This document shows positions 262-61,804 of a stretch of 64,000 nt of DNA, piece after piece (the stretch's first letter is position 1; each line of letters opens with the position of its first letter). A model generated the notes under the pieces. The model saw nothing but the letters and a program-made list of their open reading frames with translations. It was not told the DNA's origin and did not search any database. A program made the translations under genes and the position numbers. Source of the stretch: a virus; the IMG/VR virus record IMGVR_UViG_3300048035_000179, positions 1 through 64,000 of that record, one strand, 5' to 3'.

Positions 262-417
262 ATGGCTAGAGGAGTACAGAAAGAAAAAAAATCCAATAGA
301 ATTACTTTTAGGATGACCCCAACTGAAATAGATAGGTTGAACAAGGTCAGTAAATCATTAGAAATAAATGTTTCCCAAACAATAAGGAAAGCATTAAAAA
401 ACACATTCGAAATATGA
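262..417 (+). CDS. ribbon-helix-helix (Arc/CopG-like) small DNA-binding protein
   Basis: A 51-residue basic protein. Its centre, ITFRMTPTEIDRLNKVSKSL, reads as a beta strand followed by helix one of a ribbon-helix-helix domain, and VSQTIRKALKNTF is a fitting helix two. Such proteins are usually dimeric repressors. Its stop overlaps the start of the exonuclease gene (ATGA at 414-417), so the two are translationally coupled. It sits between the annealing protein and the exonuclease and probably regulates the recombination/replication operon; the operator is unknown. It is below the size most ORF callers report. Confidence 0.7.
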   Translation: MARGVQKEKKSNRITFRMTPTEIDRLNKVSKSLEINVSQTIRKALKNTFEI

Positions 418-1433
418 AAATGACAAGAATACCGACAGGTAAACTCACTTATGAGGAGTGGGTAGAATTAAGAAAGTCTTTAGTATACAAGGGTATGGTC
501 GGAGGGTCTGATGCATCAACACTGCTAGGATTAAATCCATGGACTTCAAAAATTACAAGATGGAACCAATCTGTAGGGACTGCAAATATCAAGAATATTG
601 ATAACGAGGTTATGTTTCATGGTCGTCTATTAGAAGACTATGTCGCTGATCTTTGGCAATATTGGACAGGAGACCCTATAGTAATGATAAATAATTATCA
701 GTCTAAAAATAAACTTAGAAAATCTATAAGAAGAAACTCTATTTTCATTAATGATGATTATCCATTTCTGTTTGCTAATATAGATAGACAAATTACTAAG
801 CACGATGAAATTTCTGGTAAAGGAGTTTTAGAAATTAAAACTATTTCGGGATATAATGCTGATAAGTGGGATGGTGGAATTCCTCCTTATTACATCGCAC
901 AAATTCAATTATATATGTTGGTTTTAGGTTATGCCTATGGTCAGTTTGCTTTTCTTAAAGACGGAAGACATATGGATGTATTTACTGTTGAGGCTAATAA
1001 AAACATCCAAGAAACAATTATAGAAGAGGCAAAGCAGTTTTACCTAAGTGTGCAAATGGCTAGAGAAATTATAGAAAGTGGAAGACCACTTAATCAGAAC
1101 GAAGCATACAAAATGGTATCTCACCTAGAACCAAGTGTAGAAGACCAATACAAAGTCGATCTTGATCAATTTCTTTCAGAGAAGCATAAGGCAATGGTAA
1201 ATAGAGTTAGGATAGATTCAGATGATGAGTTGTTAAAATTAACAAGAGAATATATAGAGAGTAGAGATGAAGAGAAGGTTGCTAAAAACAACAAACAACT
1301 AGCAATGCAACAGATAAAACAAATCTTAATTCATCGAGGAGCACAAGAGGTAGATTTTGGTGATAGTGGGAAGATTGTGTGGGGAAAGACATTTAATGTA
1401 AGGTTTAAAGAAAAAGAAGAAATTAATTTTTAA
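414..1433 (+). CDS. YqaJ-like phage recombination exonuclease (PD-(D/E)XK)
   Basis: 339 residues. The N-terminal GGSDASTLLGLNPWTS (about 30-45) is the hallmark of the YqaJ/lambda-exonuclease-like viral recombinase family. The nuclease core is visible as D124 (NIDRQI), E140 and K142 (LEIKT), followed by the Gln-rich helix IAQIQLYMLVLG. These enzymes resect duplex DNA 5' to 3' and pass single strands to an annealing partner. That partner is encoded just upstream (63465 to 169), making a two-component recombination module. The C-terminal third (about 250-300) is charged and helical. Start chosen by the 4-nt overlap with the preceding gene. Confidence 0.85.
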   Translation: MKMTRIPTGKLTYEEWVELRKSLVYKGMVGGSDASTLLGLNPWTSKITRWNQSVGTANIKNIDNEVMFHGRLLEDYVADLWQYWTGDPIVMINNYQSKNKLRKSIRRNSIFINDDYPFLFANIDRQITKHDEISGKGVLEIKTISGYNADKWDGGIPPYYIAQIQLYMLVLGYAYGQFAFLKDGRHMDVFTVEANKNIQETIIEEAKQFYLSVQMAREIIESGRPLNQNEAYKMVSHLEPSVEDQYKVDLDQFLSEKHKAMVNRVRIDSDDELLKLTREYIESRDEEKVAKNNKQLAMQQIKQILIHRGAQEVDFGDSGKIVWGKTFNVRFKEKEEINF

Positions 1434-1434
1434 G

Positions 1435-1800
1435 ATGGATTTAAGTAAAATAAGAAAGGGTATATTAAAAAATTTAGCGGTAAAAAACCCTCATACGCTA
1501 GAGGTAAACTCAGTTATAGAAGGCAACTCGTACTTTGGGCTTTGTATATTTATAGGCTTAGGGCTTATGTTTGGTCACTCCCACAAAACTATAGCAGAAT
1601 ATTTATCAGAAGATGTTGATCATGTTAAGTTTTTAGAAGAAAAGTTTATCAGTATTTTAAGTGATTACTTTAACACAAAAAAACCAACAACTACTGCAAA
1701 AGGTTTTTACACAAAGACAAGTCTAGTCTTAAACTTTATAAACAATAATTATGGTAAAAAGGTATCACTTGCTGAGGTGATTAAAGATAAAATAAAATAA
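1435..1800 (+). CDS. unknown 121-aa protein with a helix-turn-helix-like segment
   Basis: Not firmly recognised. Residues about 33-62 (GLCIFIGLGLMFGHSHKTIAEYLSED is the core region) look like two helices joined by a turn. They loosely recall the DnaA domain IV or HTH pattern of a hydrophobic helix followed by a recognition helix. The gene starts 1 nt after the exonuclease stop and ends 1 nt before the next ATG, so it is firmly inside the replication operon. A DNA-binding or replication accessory role is plausible by context only. Confidence 0.6.
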   Translation: MDLSKIRKGILKNLAVKNPHTLEVNSVIEGNSYFGLCIFIGLGLMFGHSHKTIAEYLSEDVDHVKFLEEKFISILSDYFNTKKPTTTAKGFYTKTSLVLNFINNNYGKKVSLAEVIKDKIK

Positions 1801-1801
1801 T

Positions 1802-2071
1802 ATGAATATAAGTGTAAACGGACAAATAAGATTTATATCACAAGTAAATAAAGTTGAATCAAAAACTGACGATTTATCTCAACATATTTTTAAAATATTA
1901 GTTATCGAAACTTTAGACAACTCATACCTTGCAATTCATTGTTGGGATGGAGCAGTTGAAAAGATAAAAGATTATAAGGTAAAAGATCTTGTTGAGTTGG
2001 AATGCAGATTAGAGTCACATAGAAACAGGAAAAACAAAGATTTGTGGTATCATAAACTGTTATTAAGATGA
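1802..2071 (+). CDS. small OB-fold-like protein (DUF3127-like), probable ssDNA-binding accessory
   Basis: 89 residues, mostly alternating beta strands. The pattern (strand, then LAIHCWDGAVEKIKDYKVKD, then LVELECRLES and a final LWYHKLLLR) resembles the DUF3127 proteins common in Bacteroidota and their phages, which are OB folds likened to single-strand binding proteins. It overlaps the next gene by 4 nt (ATGA). A second, longer relative lies at 5264. Assignment rests on pattern and context, not on an invariant motif. Confidence 0.55.
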   Translation: MNISVNGQIRFISQVNKVESKTDDLSQHIFKILVIETLDNSYLAIHCWDGAVEKIKDYKVKDLVELECRLESHRNRKNKDLWYHKLLLR

Positions 2072-2682
2072 TAAGAAGCACAACTGTAATTTATGAAGTC
2101 TTGAGAAGATATGATCTTTCTCCTATAGCCTATATGTTAAGCGATTTAATTTATAAATACACATCTCATGATGGGTACTGTGATAAGAATTTAAAAGACT
2201 TGTCAGAGGAGTTAAATTGTTCACCTCGATCACTAACAAGATATGTTTCAGATTTGGTAGAAAAAAAATTTATTGAAAACATTGGTACGAAATCTCATCC
2301 AAAGTACAGAACAACTCCACTTTGGTTTAGACTAGGAGTTTCAGATGGTATTGAGGTTATATCTTTAGAATATCAAAAAACATGTAAAGATGTTATTGAT
2401 TATATAAATAATAAATACAACAAAAAATACAATCCAAGAACATACGAGAAAAGATTTAAAAGTATTCTCTCAAAAAAGTTTAATGGAGAACCTATAACAG
2501 GTAAAATTATGGTTAATGTATTTGATTGGTGTAAATCACAATGGAGTGAAAAGTATCAATCATCAGTAACCCCCGAAGTTATATTCGGAAACAAATTCAC
2601 AGAGAAATATTTAATTCAATATACAGAGTGGGATTCAATTAATAAGGTATCCCCCAACAGAAAAAGAGTAGCAATTATATGA
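2068..2682 (+). CDS. replication initiator / helicase-loader-like protein (winged helix + Phg_2220_C-like domain)
   Basis: 204 residues in two parts. Residues 1-85 look like a winged helix (KNLKDLSEELNCSPRSLTRY, then LVEKKFIENIG). Residues about 108-190, with VIDYINNKYNKKYNPRT, WCKSQWSE and TPEVIFGNKF, match the conserved phage C-terminal domain found in replisome-organizer proteins. Such proteins melt or mark the phage origin and bring in the helicase. It lies directly upstream of the primase-helicase and overlaps it by 4 nt, which supports that role. Confidence 0.7.
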   Translation: MIRSTTVIYEVLRRYDLSPIAYMLSDLIYKYTSHDGYCDKNLKDLSEELNCSPRSLTRYVSDLVEKKFIENIGTKSHPKYRTTPLWFRLGVSDGIEVISLEYQKTCKDVIDYINNKYNKKYNPRTYEKRFKSILSKKFNGEPITGKIMVNVFDWCKSQWSEKYQSSVTPEVIFGNKFTEKYLIQYTEWDSINKVSPNRKRVAII

Positions 2683-4394
2683 CAAACTATTTATCAAAAC
2701 TACAAGCACTTGGCATCGATGTCAAGAATGGCACAGGCACTGAACCTCAAAAAACTAAGTGTCCAAAATGTTCTCACACTAGAAAAAAGAACAAAAACGA
2801 AAAATGTCTTAGGGTATGGGTAGAGACAGGAACTTATTACTGCCATCATTGTGGTGACAATGGTTCTGTTGCAGAGTATGAAACCGAATATGAATTACCA
2901 ACTGTAAAAGCATCTCCTTTATCTCCTAAAATATTAAAATTTTTCAAGGATAGAGGTATAAATGAAAGCACAATAGAATACTTTGGTGTTACGGAGGGTG
3001 TAGAGTATATGCCACAAGTACAAAGTGAAAGACCTGTAATACAGTTTAATTACATTAGAAAGGGTAGGAGAATTAACATAAAATTTAGAGACTCTCAAAA
3101 GAATTTTAAACTAAACAAAGGTTCAGAAATGATCATGTATGGTTTAGATTTAATTAATCCTGCAACTTGGTGTATTATAACAGAAGGTGAGTTTGATGCA
3201 ATGGCTTTTTACGAGGCAGGATTGCAAGAAAATAGACTTATGTTTGCTTGTTCTGTACCAAATGGCGCATCTACAGGAAATCAAAATCTCACATACTTAG
3301 ATAATAGTATCGATGAGTTTGAAAATAAAGACAAAATATATTTAGCATTAGATAATGATGCACCAGGAATAAAACTAAGAGACGAGTTGTCAAGGCGACT
3401 AGGTAAGGATAGAGTTTGGTTAGTAAACTTTCCCGATGGATGTAAAGATGCCAATGATGTTTTACTCAAACATGGGTCGTTTGAATTAATTAAGTGTATA
3501 GACTCTGCAAAACCCTTTCCTTTGGAGGGGGTGAGTAAAGCATCTGACTCTCGTAAAGAAATACATAATCTTTATAATCATGGAATGCCAAAGGGTGATG
3601 AGATTGGTTATAAAGAGTTTGACCAACTTATGTCATGGAGACCAAGTGAATTTACACTAGTTACAGGAGTTCCTGGTCATGGTAAGTCGTCTTTCGTTGA
3701 TCAAGTTATAGTAGAGTTAGCGAGACAAGGATGGAAGTTTGGAATATTTTCAGCAGAAAAACAACCAATAAAAGTACATGTTGCAGAATTGATAGAAAAA
3801 TATACAGGTAAAAGATTTGGTAAAGGTTCAGTAGATAATTTGCAACCACACGAATTAGACCCTGCAATAGACTTTGTAAACAAACATTTCTTCTTCATAA
3901 ATCTTAAGGATAATGATTTAACAGTAGAAGGTATATTGAATAAAGGAAAAGAGTTAGTTAAAAAAATGGGAATAAACTGCTTAATTATTGACAATTGGGC
4001 GTTTGTAGAGCATAAGATAGAGAGAGGAATGAATGAACATCAATATACAGGACTTCAACTATCTAAAATAAAAATATTTAAAGAGGCTTATGACTGCGGT
4101 GTAATACTTGTTGCTCACCCTCAAAAATTAAAAAAAGAGAATGGGAAGGTAGAGGTCGCTTCAGGTTACAGCGTAAGTGGCTCTTCCCACTTCTTTAATA
4201 AAGTAGATAATGGAATTACTGTATACCGAGATTTTGAAAGAGAACTTGTCGAGGTGCATGTTTGGAAGGTTCGATGGAGGTTCACAGGAAAAACAGGTAT
4301 GCAGGAATTCAAATATAATTTAAATACTACTTGTTACACTGAATATGAAGAAACAACACATAACGGTCAATATGCGAAATTCCAAGGACAATAA
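2679..4394 (+). CDS. bifunctional primase-helicase (T7 gp4-like)
   Basis: 571 residues. A zinc ribbon has cysteines at 28, 31, 55 and 58 (CPKC...CHHC). A TOPRIM primase core follows with E169 (TEGEFDAM) and the acidic pair D225/D227 (ALDNDAPG). The C-terminal half is a DnaB/RecA-type helicase, with Walker A GVPGHGKS at 330-337 and Walker B aspartate D438 (CLIIDNWAF). It makes primers and unwinds DNA at the fork. It is translationally coupled to the initiator-like gene upstream. The end overlaps the next gene by about 23 nt. Confidence 0.92.
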   Translation: MTNYLSKLQALGIDVKNGTGTEPQKTKCPKCSHTRKKNKNEKCLRVWVETGTYYCHHCGDNGSVAEYETEYELPTVKASPLSPKILKFFKDRGINESTIEYFGVTEGVEYMPQVQSERPVIQFNYIRKGRRINIKFRDSQKNFKLNKGSEMIMYGLDLINPATWCIITEGEFDAMAFYEAGLQENRLMFACSVPNGASTGNQNLTYLDNSIDEFENKDKIYLALDNDAPGIKLRDELSRRLGKDRVWLVNFPDGCKDANDVLLKHGSFELIKCIDSAKPFPLEGVSKASDSRKEIHNLYNHGMPKGDEIGYKEFDQLMSWRPSEFTLVTGVPGHGKSSFVDQVIVELARQGWKFGIFSAEKQPIKVHVAELIEKYTGKRFGKGSVDNLQPHELDPAIDFVNKHFFFINLKDNDLTVEGILNKGKELVKKMGINCLIIDNWAFVEHKIERGMNEHQYTGLQLSKIKIFKEAYDCGVILVAHPQKLKKENGKVEVASGYSVSGSSHFFNKVDNGITVYRDFERELVEVHVWKVRWRFTGKTGMQEFKYNLNTTCYTEYEETTHNGQYAKFQGQ

Positions 4395-4671
4395 ACAAAA
4401 ACTATATAAGGTTGTGTGGGGTAGAAACAAATGGGGTACGTCTATAGGAAAGCAGAAAGTATTTGAAAGTGGAGACTTTTTAAGACCTGCGATGCTTGAT
4501 GAGGTTGTGCCTGATAAAGAAGAGTACTTTATAAGACCTAATGGAACAGGTGATTGTTATTATCTGCTTTATAAAGGTTTTGATAAGAGTGTTAAATATG
4601 ATGATATAAAAACATTTGTAGAGCACAAAATGGTTTATGTCTATAAAGATTTTAATGTATATGGGAAATAA
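4372..4671 (+). CDS. unknown 99-aa replication-operon protein
   Basis: Not recognised. A basic N terminus (MRNSKDNKQKLYKVVWGRNK) is followed by a compact mixed domain rich in aromatic and acidic residues. An in-frame ATG exists at 4345, but 4372 gives a shorter overlap with the primase-helicase gene. The 3' end overlaps the next gene (ATG at 4661). Context suggests a small replication or repair accessory; nothing in the sequence shows an activity. Confidence 0.55.
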   Translation: MRNSKDNKQKLYKVVWGRNKWGTSIGKQKVFESGDFLRPAMLDEVVPDKEEYFIRPNGTGDCYYLLYKGFDKSVKYDDIKTFVEHKMVYVYKDFNVYGK

Positions 4672-6995: not shown

Positions 6996-9900
6996 TCTTT
7001 TCTATATTTTTCGTATCCACCACTGTAAAAAACATCAATAAATGCTGCATCCCTAGCCTCTTTTTTTAAGGTTGCTACAAAATCCTGCATTACTTCGGTT
7101 TGATTTGTTTTACTTAAATTTCTTAACGTTTCAAGATTTCGTCTTAAAGCCTTTCCTGTTTCTTTAGCAGCCCTAATTTTATAAACCATATACTCATCAG
7201 AGGTCATATCTCTATTTTCTCCTGTTTCAAAGTTTATAGTTTTTCTTTGGTTACTTGGAAACCCTATAAATATTCCGTTATTAGTTAAAAGTTTTGCAAT
7301 CGGATCAGCGTCATCCCCTATAGCAAACTCGAATGGAATATATTTTTCAGATTGGTTTGGTATAACTGGGTCACCCATTGAATCAACTAAATCATATAAA
7401 CCGCTATTTGCCATTGGAATATCTCTGTAAAGTTGACTCATTGCAGAAGCAAAAGTTCCATTTGCTCTGGATTTTATTGGATCGTCTAAAATATCCATCA
7501 TAAGTCTTATTTTTTGCTTGTGGAAATTAGGTATAACAATAGAAGAAATAGTTCCAAATAACTTATTTGCTACCTTTTTGTCCCAATCTTCTCTATTCAT
7601 TAACCCACCTAAATCTTCAATACCTTGAAGCCAAGATTGTCCCGTCATACTCATTGCTGTTTGACCCACAACATATGCTGCAAGATCATCTTCTATTACG
7701 TTTCCATACTTATTAGATTCGTATAAAGTTCCTGCTGAAACAAAAATAAAAAACATAGGGTGATCTTTATATGAGAAACTAACATCGCCAAATGAGACTG
7801 TAAAAGGTTTCCAACCACCTTTTTGTAACTCATACCTCTTTTTATAATCAGTAGGACCTGCGGCTGTTATTTTAAACCATTGATCTTCATCAGGCTCATC
7901 TAGTCCCTTCATTAAAGTAGCATATAATCCTAGCATAGTTGATGTACCTATTGTGGCTTTTATCATAAGATCAGATTTCTCATCTGAAGTTAATGCTCTT
8001 ACTTTTCCTCCTGTAACTCTGACACTTGCCTCATTTTTCAAGCGTTTTTTTCCATTACTATCTGTAGTAAATTTTAATCCAGAAAAGGGTATAAATTCTT
8101 TAATACCACTTTTTCCTGATTTAGTTGCGGTAATGAAACCTACAGGTGTCCAATGTAAAAATCTATTGAACACGTTGGTTAACACCCTTGCAAAAGGAAT
8201 AAATGTGGTTATTATTGGACCAATTTTTTCCCTGTTCCTTAACATAACAACACCATCGTATATGTAACTTAAACCACCTTCAGGATCATAGTTAAATGTA
8301 GTTTTAGATCCAAACGATTCTGCTGTACCTTGAATTGTTAAATCTCTTTTAGCCTCAACTAATTCATGAACCCTAATTTTAAATTCAGTTGTTCCTTCTT
8401 CAAACCCTTCTGTTTTGGCTTCTTTGACTGCATCCTCTATGTATTCTTTTGGAGGATTTAATATATCATTTGCTTTCTTTAAATCTTCTGGAGTTACATT
8501 TTTGCCTCTCTTTAATTTTGATGCAAGTGCAAATGCCTGCATATCTTTAGCAGCATGATAAAACATTTGATCAAATGCAACCATACCTCTGTTAACATAT
8601 TTCAATACATTTGGAGACCAAGGATTTAACGTGTACCATGGAGAGTTTAAGGCTTTATTTAATCCTTTACTGTTTGTGTTCCATCTCCACCACTCTAAAA
8701 GTTGTGGGTTATCCATTTTATCTGCTCTTGCTGATCTAACACCAGTCTTAAGAATGTTTTTAGCATTTAACCAACCTTTCGCAAAACCTTTAATCATACC
8801 TAGTGGTGCATAAAACATAGCCTGTGGATTACCTTTCATAGCCTCTCTTACAGATGTGACTAATAACTCACTAGTGATTGACATCCAGTTTGCTACAATG
8901 TTTCTTTCCTGAGTAGTAACCCCTGATAGTATTGCTCCATAAAAATATGCTTCAAACAAATCCTTACCACTTGCGCCTAGTATAGACATCTTATATTTAT
9001 ACAGTTCTGCTACTGCTTTAGATTTCGGTAATCCTTCTGCCGCAGCCTTTTCAGTTTTAATTAAATCCTTTAACTTATTTTTCTCCTCTTCAGTTAAGGG
9101 GTTTTTACCATTCTGTTCCAGTTGTTTTTCTATAAGTGCAATGGTTCTGTCTGCGGACAAAGCATTAAGCATTCTAAAGGCTTGTATAAATCTACCTGAC
9201 CTTGTTCCTTCTTTAGACATCATCTCTACAATACCATTAATTCCTGCTGATATTGTTTCTGATTCAGCAAGTTTACCTTCATCTCTGAGTTTTTGAACTT
9301 CGGATTCCAACTCTACTATAACCTTATTAGTAAGTGCAATTCTAACCTCTGGTAGTAAATACTCAGGGTTTTGTTTTATAACTTTTACAGACTCATCAAC
9401 CCCTAATTGATCAAACATAATTTGAGCCTCAGCATCTGTTATTTGATTAGATCTAGGAACATATTTTTTAGCGTCTTCTGACAATGCTTCAAATGTTTCT
9501 GAACTTAATACCTCAGCCAATCTACTAGTATATTTTCTATTAGCACTAGGCTTGTCGGATTCAGGAGTTATATTACCTTCATATAGTTCACTTAATCTTT
9601 CTGTAGTATAGTCAGGGAATCTTCTATTTAAGTAATCTATAACTTTAGCCTTATCTAATCCATTATCTTTTGCTCTTTGTAATGCTTGATTTATTTGATC
9701 TTCAGTTACTGGGTTTTTTCCGTCTAATTGAAAGGATGGTGAATATTCTTTAGGTTTATTTTCCTCTGTAAAATATTCTACATTCCCTCTTGCATAAACC
9801 TTAGTTCCTACAATAGTGACTTCGTCTGCTCTTTTTACTGGCTTACCATCAGAGTCAACAAACAGACTGTTTTTCATAGGATTAAAACCTATTTCAACTC

Positions 9901-50402: not shown

Positions 50403-50411
50403 TTATTCACA

Positions 50412-50669
50412 ATGGCTTACCAAGGAGGTTTAAGAAAATGGTTTAAAGAAAACTGGATTAATACATCCACAGGTAAAGCATGCGGTGAAGGTGACTCTGT
50501 TCAAAGTACTGGTAAATATTGTAGACCTACAAATAGGGTAGACTCATCAACTCCTAAAACAGTAGGGGAGATTAAAAAAAGTACTTTAGCAAGAAAAAAG
50601 GCTGAGAAAAAGAAAAAAAGTAATAGTGGACCAACACCCACTAAAGTTAAACCGTTAAAAAGAGTATAA
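50412..50669 (+). CDS. conserved 'GLRKWFKENW' phage protein (DUF5872-like), 85 aa
   Basis: GGLRKWFKENWINTSTGKAC, then GKYCRPTNRVDSSTPKT, then a Lys-rich tail. This pattern is widespread in marine phage and algal-virus small proteins; the function is unknown. Two conserved Cys and the charged tail suggest a structural or nucleic-acid-associated protein. Confidence 0.6.
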   Translation: MAYQGGLRKWFKENWINTSTGKACGEGDSVQSTGKYCRPTNRVDSSTPKTVGEIKKSTLARKKAEKKKKSNSGPTPTKVKPLKRV

Positions 50670-53054: not shown

Positions 53055-53594
53055 ATGTCATGCAATTTAAAAAAATGAACCATTGTTCAATGCCGATTGA
53101 TTAAGTTTTTATTAACACGAAATTAACTGATAGACATTATGTCTAGCACTGGTAGACAAATTGGCTACCCAAAAATAAATTTGGTAGTTAGATATATATT
53201 AGTATATTATATATATATTATATATTATACTAGTATTATAAATTAAACTATTATAATACATGATCACCCCGAATTGAATTTAAGAGGTTTTAAGAGACTC
53301 TAAAATAATCGGCTTTATAATACCATTATTATTTCGTGAAAGTTTCTTAAATTTGCTCAGAATGATTGTAGATGGCTTTTTGTGGTAATACATATATATA
53401 CTACCCGTTGACGCAAAAAGGGAAGTGGATTTTGGCAAGTGGGTAGGTCGGCATTTAGGAGTTGTAAAACGAAATCGGATTCTCATTAGGAATCCACACA
53501 AACCACATAACCTATTGACATTCAGTCTTTTGCATAGTATCTCACGTTGTTTTGTGTAGATTTTGCTACCAGGTAACACTAAAAAAGGGAAACG
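53055..53594. other. 540-bp intergenic region between divergent operons: AT-rich core, dyads and possible structured RNA
   Basis: No credible gene. It holds GGTAG...CTACC and CCAAA...TTTGG dyads (about 53150-53185), then about 70 bp of almost pure A/T with TATATATT/AGTATA repeats (53188-53262). Next comes a less AT-rich part with CTACCC (53401-53406) pairing to GGGTAG (53441-53446) and GGATTC...GAATCC near 53490. A - strand -7-like TATTTTTG lies at 53170-53177. TTGACA (53515-53520) with TATCTC 17 nt later resembles a sigma-70 promoter facing right. An origin or regulatory hub is likely; exact function is not shown. Confidence 0.5.
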
Positions 53595-53690
53595 ATGCAA
53601 CAAACTAAACGAACAAAGAAAAATTTCCTCCTCTTTAAAGAGATGGAGTTATACAATGAACGAAACCAACAACAAACAATTGACACGTGA
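53595..53690 (+). CDS. possible 31-aa leader peptide
   Basis: ATG at 53595 after AAAAAAGGGAAACG. The peptide is polar and Gln/Lys/Asn-rich (KRTKKNFLLFKEMELYNERN). Its stop overlaps the GTG start of the next gene (GTGA), the kind of coupling seen elsewhere in this genome. Evidence is limited to that overlap. Confidence 0.35.
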   Translation: MQQTKRTKKNFLLFKEMELYNERNQQQTIDT

Positions 53691-54073
53691 AAGTAGGACA
53701 AAAGTTAAGAGAATTATTTAGTCATCAGAAAGCAATACAAAAGTATCTTAAGAGTATTGACAATGACTTCACACCTAAAACAATTTACATCTTTTTAGGA
53801 TGTAGTATAATAGAATCAGAATGTAAATCAGACTTCAGTTACTACGAAATAAAATCAGTGTTAAGGTTACTAGATAAAATGGAACTTGTCAAGTCAACTA
53901 ACCCTCATCAATTCTACAGAGAACACAAGAAACTTTTGAACGAAGGTTTTATAGAACGTCAAACAAAACGAGCCAAGTACACCAAACAACAATTCAACGT
54001 GACTATCTATGGTCGTATGCAGTTAAGACGTATCTATAACTATCTTATACGTGAGTTGTATACTTCCCTATAG
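53687..54073 (+). CDS. winged-helix (MarR-like) regulator candidate, 128 aa
   Basis: The frame opens just after an in-frame stop, and GTG at 53687 is the only early start codon. SYYEIKSVLRLLDKMELVKS, then LNEGFIERQTKRAKY and FNVTIYGRMQLRRIYNYL read as two helices, recognition helix and wing of a winged-helix protein, ending in a dimerisation helix. Its place beside the large regulatory intergenic region suggests it controls one of the divergent operons. Confidence 0.55.
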   Translation: MKVGQKLRELFSHQKAIQKYLKSIDNDFTPKTIYIFLGCSIIESECKSDFSYYEIKSVLRLLDKMELVKSTNPHQFYREHKKLLNEGFIERQTKRAKYTKQQFNVTIYGRMQLRRIYNYLIRELYTSL

Positions 54074-54277
54074 TAATTTAATAAGGTCACCCCAAAACCA
54101 TATGTAAAGTAAACGCCAAAAACTATACACAATACAATTGTTATGTAAAGATAATCAACGTTTTACATCAGATAAATTATGATCGATACAAGTCTATAAA
54201 TTACCCCCCAAAAAAAATCTCGGTCGACCAAAAAATGTGTGCAGTAAATGTGCAACAATGCATTTTATGTTTGCAGT
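54074..54277. promoter_or_regulatory. regulatory spacer with repeated ATGTAAA sites, a GGTCGACC palindrome and one GGTCRCCC
   Basis: ATGTAAA occurs at 54102-54108 and 54143-54149 and inverted (TTTACAT) at 54162-54168. GGTCGACC (54222-54229) is a perfect palindrome. GGTCACCC lies at 54085-54092. These look like operators or iterons for the nearby regulators. Which protein binds is unknown. Confidence 0.4.
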
Positions 54278-54484: not shown

Positions 54485-54558
54485 AATGTTCTTCCCTCTA
54501 TAGATATTTAACAATCGTTCAAGGTCACCCCAAACTAAAATCATTCTGTATGACATTT

Positions 54559-54590
54559 TTATGCACATATTTTGTGGATAACTAAATTTG
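54559..54590 (+). promoter_or_regulatory. Bacteroidota-type promoter with an inverted DnaA-box pair in its spacer
   Basis: The -7 element TAAATTTG (54583-54590) matches TAnnTTTG exactly. TATG ends 19 nt before it, in the -33 (TTTG) position. Between them sit TTATGCACA (54559-54567) and TGTGGATAA (54573-54581), 5 nt apart and facing each other. The second is the reverse complement of the consensus DnaA box TTATCCACA, the first fits TTATNCACA. It should drive the gene at 54674 and beyond, under control of host DnaA or the phage DnaA-like protein. Confidence 0.6.
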
Positions 54591-54606
54591 TTGTATATTG
54601 CCAACT

Positions 54607-54638
54607 GAACGAGCGTTCATAACGACATATCGAACGCT
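54607..54638 (+). promoter_or_regulatory. operator-like GAACG/CGTTC dyads in the leader
   Basis: GAACGAGCGTTC (54607-54618) is a palindrome with a 2-nt centre. AGCGTTC (54612-54618) also pairs with GAACGCT (54632-54638). They lie just after the predicted start of transcription, so they could be a repressor site or an RNA hairpin in the leader. Confidence 0.45.
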
Positions 54639-54673: not shown

Positions 54674-54946
54674 ATGATGCTTAACAAAATTAACCTTTCC
54701 ACAATTGATGACAATACGCTTGACCAAGCGATGAATATTTTTGATTGTATTCCTTTTACTATTCTAGACCATTACTCAAAGAAATTTAATATAGGTACAC
54801 TTGATTTATGTGTAGATGTTTTATTATCTAATAAAGAATGGCATTTGAGACTTTCACACCCTATGACATATACAACTCTTGAAGATATAATTCACGACTT
54901 TATTGGTTTAGCAAATAGAGACGAACACTTTGTTCCTAGGATTTAA
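54674..54946 (+). CDS. unknown 90-aa protein, first gene of the accessory operon
   Basis: Not recognised. An acidic/hydrophobic helical protein (DDNTLDQAMNIFDCIPFTIL, then TLEDIIHDFIGLANRDEHF). Its stop (54944-54946) is immediately followed by the hammerhead ribozyme, so ribozyme cleavage would separate its mRNA from that of the next gene and leave the ribozyme on its 3' end. Confidence 0.6.
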   Translation: MMLNKINLSTIDDNTLDQAMNIFDCIPFTILDHYSKKFNIGTLDLCVDVLLSNKEWHLRLSHPMTYTTLEDIIHDFIGLANRDEHFVPRI

Positions 54947-54996
54947 GGCTAACTGATGAGGATTTAATATCCGAAACGCTGTGAAGCGTCTTAGTC
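54947..54996 (+). ncRNA. type I hammerhead self-cleaving ribozyme
   Basis: Every core position is present. CTGATGA is at 54953-54959. Stem II is GGAT (54960-54963) with ATCC (54969-54972), starting with the canonical G-C pair. GAA is at 54973-54975. Stem III is ACGCT (54976-54980) with AGCGT (54985-54989) closed by a GTGA (GNRA) tetraloop. The cleavage nucleotide is C54990 after the stem III U. Stem I is GGCTAA (54947-54952) with TTAGTC (54991-54996), 6 bp with one G-U. The open end is at stem I, so it is type I. Cleavage after C54990 leaves a 5'-OH RNA with 10 nt before the next AUG. Activity is predicted, not shown. Confidence 0.9.
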
Positions 54997-55000
54997 AATA

Positions 55001-61252: not shown

Positions 61253-61804
61253 ATGACAAATAATATGAAACTACAGTTAGACGCTGTGGTAAAGACAATT
61301 AATGCTGTAACAGGAGCAGATGTAACTGCTAAAGACAGACACAGAGATAATGTAGATGCTAGATTAATTTTCTACAAAGTAGCAAGAGATATATTTAATA
61401 TTTCATATACTAAAATAGGCACATACTTAGGTAAGCATCACGCAACTGTTTTACATGGACTTAAACAGTTTGATAATATTTATGATCAAGATAAAGGATT
61501 ACGAAATTGTTATGAAGCAGTTATTAATTTATTAGATCAAACCGATCTTGACGAATACATTGTAGAAAGCAAAGATTTAGTAGTTAAATATGTTCAAGAA
61601 AAAAATGCACACCTTTTGTTGAAGCAAAAACATAAAGTTTTTAATGAAAAAATAGAGGATAAGGCTTATGAATATATAACAAATATGATTTCTGAATTTC
61701 GTTCCACAACACTTGAAAGAATTTTGCTTGACAGGAGTGTTCCACATAAATTATCAAATATTCTTGTAGAAGCCTTGGAAAGCAGAGATAAAACAGTATA
61801 TTGA
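61253..61804 (+). CDS. DnaA domain-IV-like DNA-binding protein, 183 aa
   Basis: Residues about 28-75 match DnaA domain IV: ARLIFYKVARDIFNISYTKI then GTYLGKHHATVLHGLKQF. R37 aligns with the minor-groove arginine (E. coli R399). KHHAT replaces the RDHTT signature, keeping the key His and the last Thr. No AAA+ ATPase is present. The remaining ~105 residues are helical and unknown. It should bind DnaA boxes without ATP-driven origin melting, and could compete with host DnaA or act as a repressor. Boxes of the right type lie at 54559-54581. Confidence 0.8.
   Translation: MTNNMKLQLDAVVKTINAVTGADVTAKDRHRDNVDARLIFYKVARDIFNISYTKIGTYLGKHHATVLHGLKQFDNIYDQDKGLRNCYEAVINLLDQTDLDEYIVESKDLVVKYVQEKNAHLLLKQKHKVFNEKIEDKAYEYITNMISEFRSTTLERILLDRSVPHKLSNILVEALESRDKTVY

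Follow-up and report, generated by a model that had tools for sequence, protein, structure and literature searches.

The window, by which we mean the whole 64,000-nucleotide stretch analyzed (positions 1 to 64,000 of IMG/VR virus record IMGVR_UViG_3300048035_000179), derives from a phage whose host is probably a member of the Flavobacteria, and it contains two divergent operons with the gene at 53687..54073 (plus strand) lying between their promoters. This gene encodes a highly conserved 128-aa protein with a predicted MarR/PadR-like winged helix; no Pfam match exceeded the cut-off, and the best Foldseek matches of its model (pLDDT 83) were MarR proteins (best E 1.7e-3, TM 0.5-0.6). Its probable -7 element is TAAATTTG at 53348..53355 (plus strand), which many relatives keep as TATATTTG, TAGATTTG or a similar sequence. 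The rightward operon is headed by a 90-aa gene (54674..54946, plus strand) for which a single-protein scan found no relatives and whose place is taken by other genes in related contigs, followed by a conserved second gene encoding a DUF932/TIGR03299-like phage protein (55001..55969, plus strand). If the record is circularly permuted, the rightward genes run on to those at 414-4394 for an exonuclease, an initiation-like protein and a primase-helicase; the leftward genes include the terminase and portal. On these grounds the rightward operon would, by analogy, be early and the leftward operon late. A blastn search against phages returned no relatives, and a scan of prokaryote genomes with the DUF932 alignment gave no match and hence no evidence of a prophage.

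The rightward operon also carries candidate structured RNAs. A type I-like hammerhead ribozyme sequence lies between the accessory genes at 54946-55000 and folds as a hammerhead, though a search of the window against Rfam reported none. Hammerhead-like sequences recur between cassette genes in relatives (L001 at 777-825 and in a second copy, L003, L058, L061, L063 and L064); the window's sequence and one of the L001 copies fold as expected, and the helix sequences differ. In L010 (4129-4172) and L011 (about 4480-4530) the intergenic place of the other relatives' hammerheads is occupied by a tRNA-like minihelix, consisting of an acceptor stem and T arm only, which is a possible RNA-processing signal. 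A stem sequence, CTACCAACTTGC..GAGTTTTTGGTGG, is conserved between the genes before DUF932 in L002, L004 and L008.

Converging DnaA-type boxes at the rightward promoter

Positions 54559-54581 read TTATGCACA TATTT TGTGGATAA, in which a left DnaA-type box, TTATGCACA (54559..54567, plus strand), converges across a 5-nt gap on a right box, TTATCCACA (54573..54581, minus strand; TGTGGATAA on the plus strand), confirming the first-pass annotation's claim of two boxes facing each other across 5 nt. Both boxes fit the DnaA-box consensus TTWTNCACA, which is not enriched in the window as a whole (10 boxes seen versus 12 expected), and TTATCCACA has no other exact match there. A single converging match to TTATNCACA-N3-8-TGTGNATAA is present in the window, compared with zero across 100 shuffles; this pair pattern was chosen post hoc, and conservation is a better test than rarity against shuffled sequence. 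Elsewhere in the window, the top single box match, TTATTCACA at 50403-50411, abuts the ATG of the open reading frame at 50412.

Placement of the boxes relative to the promoter rests on the promoter classes of Flavobacterium psychrophilum, in which sigma-A promoters carry TAnnTTTG and the SM5 class carries TAnnTTGY, both at -12 to -5 (PMC9723704). The sequence TATATTGC at 54594..54601 (plus strand) is an exact fit to TAnnTTGY, and we take it as the probable -7 element of a flavobacterial sigma-A/SM5-type promoter; its position is conserved in relatives, whose element beside the downstream operator reads TATATTTG, TATTATTG, TACTATTG or TATATTGC. This fit puts the inferred +1 at 54606 and the probable -33 element, on the basis of sequence, alignment and inference, at the TTTG of 54571-54574 (plus strand), the center of the box dyad. 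The left box then spans about -47 to -39 and the right box about -33 to -25, so that the pair straddles and overlaps the -33 rather than filling the gap between -33 and -7. In most relatives the aligned -33 is likewise TTTG or TATTG and lies within the inter-box gap or spans it. The first-pass annotation had the boxes fill the space between a TATG at -33 and a TAnnTTTG at -7, which was not borne out, the conserved -7 sitting 11 nt further downstream. That promoter, TATG followed by TAAATTTG at 54583-54590, was dropped: neither element is conserved in relatives and TATG does not match the TTTG of a -33 element. TAnnTTTG itself occurs at chance level in the window (109 seen versus 95 expected). 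A separate conserved element, AAGGTCACCCCAAA, is found at 54083-54096, just after gene 53687, and again at 54521-54534 before the rightward promoter; in relatives it lies directly 3' of the 53687 stop codon.

Beginning at the inferred +1 is a conserved operator-like sequence, TGAACGAGCGTTCA (54606..54619, plus strand), which the window carries twice. The second copy (53076..53089, minus strand; TGAACAATGGTTCA on that strand) lies 21 nt upstream of the first ATG of the leftward operon (53054). Exactly two copies of TGAACNNNNGTTCA are thus present against 0.06 expected, and most relatives retain both in exact or near form. A further DnaA-type box, TTATTAACA (53109..53117, plus strand; TGTTAATAA on the minus strand), precedes the leftward operator by 28 nt and is the window's second-highest single site by a matrix built from relatives, in nearly all of which, counting from the operator, the leftward box falls at -27 to -29. 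The right arm at the rightward promoter lies at a similar distance in many relatives, and at -33 in the window itself. As judged from sequence, the rightward pair is one half of a two-promoter system in which the divergent operon shares a DnaA-type box and TGAACNNNNGTTCA.

The presence of two kinds of site at both starts raises the question of which regulator reads which. Were the adjacent, highly conserved and predicted MarR-like 53687 protein, or another phage regulator, to bind the box dyad, its likeness to DnaA boxes would be incidental. We regard this as highly improbable: the arms hold DnaA-box positions 4 and 7-9 invariant, and a MarR-type dimer is better matched by the separate palindrome TGAACNNNNGTTCA, whose conservation does not depend on the boxes: part of it persists in L003, L062 and L064, which have no rightward pair. 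At both starts, the TGAACNNNNGTTCA operators are more likely to be read by the 53687 protein.

Conservation of the pair among relatives

Related viral contigs were recruited via the products of genes 55001 (DUF932) and 53687 (128 aa), and 17 rightward promoters, including that of the window, were aligned on the TGAACNNNNGTTCA-like operator; an eighteenth locus, L002, has neither operator nor pair and stands outside the alignment. A converging pair occurs at the same place in 14 of the 17 promoters and in seven of nine clades, the window's clade included, although several loci are closely related and these counts are not fully independent. In each of the 14, the pair lies -42 to -48 from the operator and was matched by at most 2 of 1000 shuffles, using box matrices that leave out the promoter's own clade, with clades assigned by eye. 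No converging rightward pair was found in L003, L064 or L062 among the aligned promoters, nor in L002; the first three retain the leftward box despite missing the rightward pair. With a matrix built from relatives only, the window's sequence excluded and the arms picked by eye, the window pair ranks first genome-wide among converging pairs, scoring 19.9 compared with 13.5 for the next pair and 19.4 for the best in 40 simulated genomes. These results support the box pair, as a sequence feature, being a conserved promoter element. The full composite pattern drawn from the first-pass annotation was also sought; it recurs in one other viral contig (L015), which lacks a Bac_DnaA_C protein, probably by chance. 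In L002, the one relative without DnaA-type boxes or a TGAAC operator, the promoter is preceded by another perfect dyad, ATGTACGATTGTACAT (9526-9541).

The arms themselves bear on whether the host initiator reads the site. Host DnaA binding to the pair would tie early phage transcription to the level or activity of host DnaA, comparable to lambda pR/oriLambda, where DnaA-protected, DnaA-box-like sites lie near promoters (PMC3985674), and the boxes of the window and of L011 do fit, or nearly fit, the DnaA consensus. In most relatives, however, position 6 is A in one arm or in both, which falls outside TTWTNCACA; 13 of the 20 relatives' arms counted have this A, many being TTATNAACA, which fits the consensus poorly at that position. 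The leftward boxes are mostly of the A-at-position-6 type as well. Because so many conserved arms deviate in this way, host DnaA is less likely than a phage protein to be the ligand, and the phage group has a domain IV protein of its own; we therefore consider a host DnaA operator unlikely.

The phage-encoded domain IV protein and a proposed switch

The candidate phage ligand is a 183-aa protein encoded at 61253..61804 (plus strand). It matches Pfam Bac_DnaA_C (PF08299) above the cut-off (E 1.5e-10), and profile search gave no ATPase domain match, so the earlier description of a DnaA-box-binding-type domain without an ATPase stands. Nor does it resemble a full-length DnaA initiator with an AAA+ domain III, since TIGR00362 aligns only at positions 354-435 and far below its cut-off. 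Compared with the box-bound structure of E. coli DnaA domain IV (1j1v), the protein gives a phmmer E of 5.7e-4, and its AF2 model (mean pLDDT 84) superposes on 1j1v with a TM of 0.84 by target length and an rmsd of 1.6 A over 91 columns. The 61253 protein is, by profile and predicted fold, a stand-alone DnaA domain IV, after which the model predicts a long C-terminal helix (residues 106-146). Equivalents of E. coli R399, R401, R407 and H434 are invariant in 14 aligned phage proteins including the window's, and R399, R407 and H434 are what we take to be DNA-contact residues of domain IV. At positions 433, 435 and 437, some or all of the phage proteins depart from the E. coli residue. A one-to-one link between box position 6 (C/A) and recognition-helix residue 437 (V/G) was considered and rejected, fitting L004, L009 and L010 and not the set in general.

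A single-protein scan with 61253 found no relatives; homologues are present in those recruited relatives whose contigs reach the locus, and the several short or partial contigs that show none are uninformative. The first-pass annotation had proposed checking whether relatives keep the boxes and the protein together. For the most part they do, but L003, L064 and L062 carry the protein without the rightward pair, and L002 carries it with neither pair nor operator, which counts against the 61253 protein as the reader of the pair. So do box variation that maps uncleanly onto recognition-helix variation and the cultured Flavobacterium phages that encode a shorter, distant DnaA-like protein without such a pair.

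These points notwithstanding, boxes placed across the -33, in a phage with a box-reading domain of its own, point to an operator at which the 61253 protein would act, and this protein is the most likely binder of the pair. From the computed sites, their position and conservation, the predicted domain IV fold with its conserved arginines and histidine, and the co-occurrence of protein and boxes, we infer the following model of binding, dimerization, repression and early timing, and of the assignment of proteins to sites. The 61253 protein, probably a dimer via its long C-terminal helix, would bind the two boxes straddling the rightward -33 and hinder RNA polymerase, limiting the early operon or shutting it off. 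Should transcription of the operon extend as far as 61253, this would constitute negative feedback on 61253 itself, comparable to bacterial DnaA at dnaA, for which autoregulation via a DnaA box is established (PMC5835720). The protein probably also acts at the single leftward box, possibly with the opposite effect. We hold at about an even chance that the pair is an operator read by the 61253 protein to limit or shut off the early operon; the likeliest reading overall is that the virus would be reusing part of the bacterial replication starter as a gene switch.

The position of the pair alone is also compatible with activation or with an origin function. The 61253 protein might bind the pair and activate or switch the promoter, with the left box bringing it into contact with RNA polymerase and a low-affinity right box. 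The arms are indeed unequal in clades with TTATTCACA/TTATTAACA, and the leftward operon, having no clear host -7, might need an activator. The right box overlaps the -33, however, and an exact sigma-A type -7 is present at several rightward promoters, where an activator therefore seems superfluous; on balance we are doubtful that activation is the correct account.

Alternatively, the region could be the phage replication origin and the boxes initiator sites, with any effects on transcription secondary. Four TGKCTAnC-like copies in alternating orientation (53129..53169, minus strand) and an AT-rich tract (53190..53260) are conserved in relatives, together spanning 53129-53260, and the cumulative GC skew has its minimum at 54-56 kb. 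An origin near 53120-53260 is therefore plausible; it is the pair's part in it that is improbable, since 1.3 kb separates these features from the pair, the skew minimum falls where gene direction switches, an initiation-like protein and a primase-helicase are encoded by the phage itself (2068-4394), and in relatives the pair is locked to the -33/-7 and the operator. Inspection of the initiator-like gene at 2068 turned up no repeat cluster pointing to an origin there. On the first-pass alternative of an origin role, the origin-like features nearby are at 53120-53260 and not at the pair, which its sequence context ties to promoter elements.

Relation to known systems

DnaA is known as an initiator and occasional transcription factor, and both DnaA boxes at promoters and domain IV outside DnaA have been described, the latter in TnpA-REP-like HuH proteins (PMC6006769) and in Flavobacterium phages. 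A literature search covering few subscription journals turned up no account of a stand-alone domain IV protein from a phage at work on promoters. If the proposed model is true, a phage lineage would use the box-reading domain alone as a promoter regulator, showing that this domain is separable from replication; phage proteins annotated merely as 'DnaA helix-turn-helix' would gain a testable function, and a control region would be defined for a little-known group of uncultured phages.

A parallel in gene content is the 'bacterial helix-turn-helix protein' (PF08299) of the Flavobacterium phages Muminvirus and Hattifnattvirus, which is likewise a stand-alone domain IV in a rightward operon; it differs in having 112 aa and about 30% identity over half of the window protein, and no matching box pair was found in these cultured phages. 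Lambda has DnaA-type sites in a phage promoter region (pR/pO and oriLambda) but relies on host DnaA and is not known to encode a domain IV protein of its own. The TnpA-REP-like HuH proteins of subclass 2.1, with their C-terminal Bac_DnaA_C, also reuse domain IV outside DnaA; theirs is fused to a nuclease, and their flanking repeats are unlike DnaA boxes (PMC6006769). E. coli dnaA autorepression shares with the present system a DnaA-type box at the promoter, the domain IV fold and, as proposed here, negative feedback, whereas the candidate regulator in this case is a phage protein that lacks the ATPase domain, and the site consists of two converging boxes placed across a Bacteroidetes-type -33.
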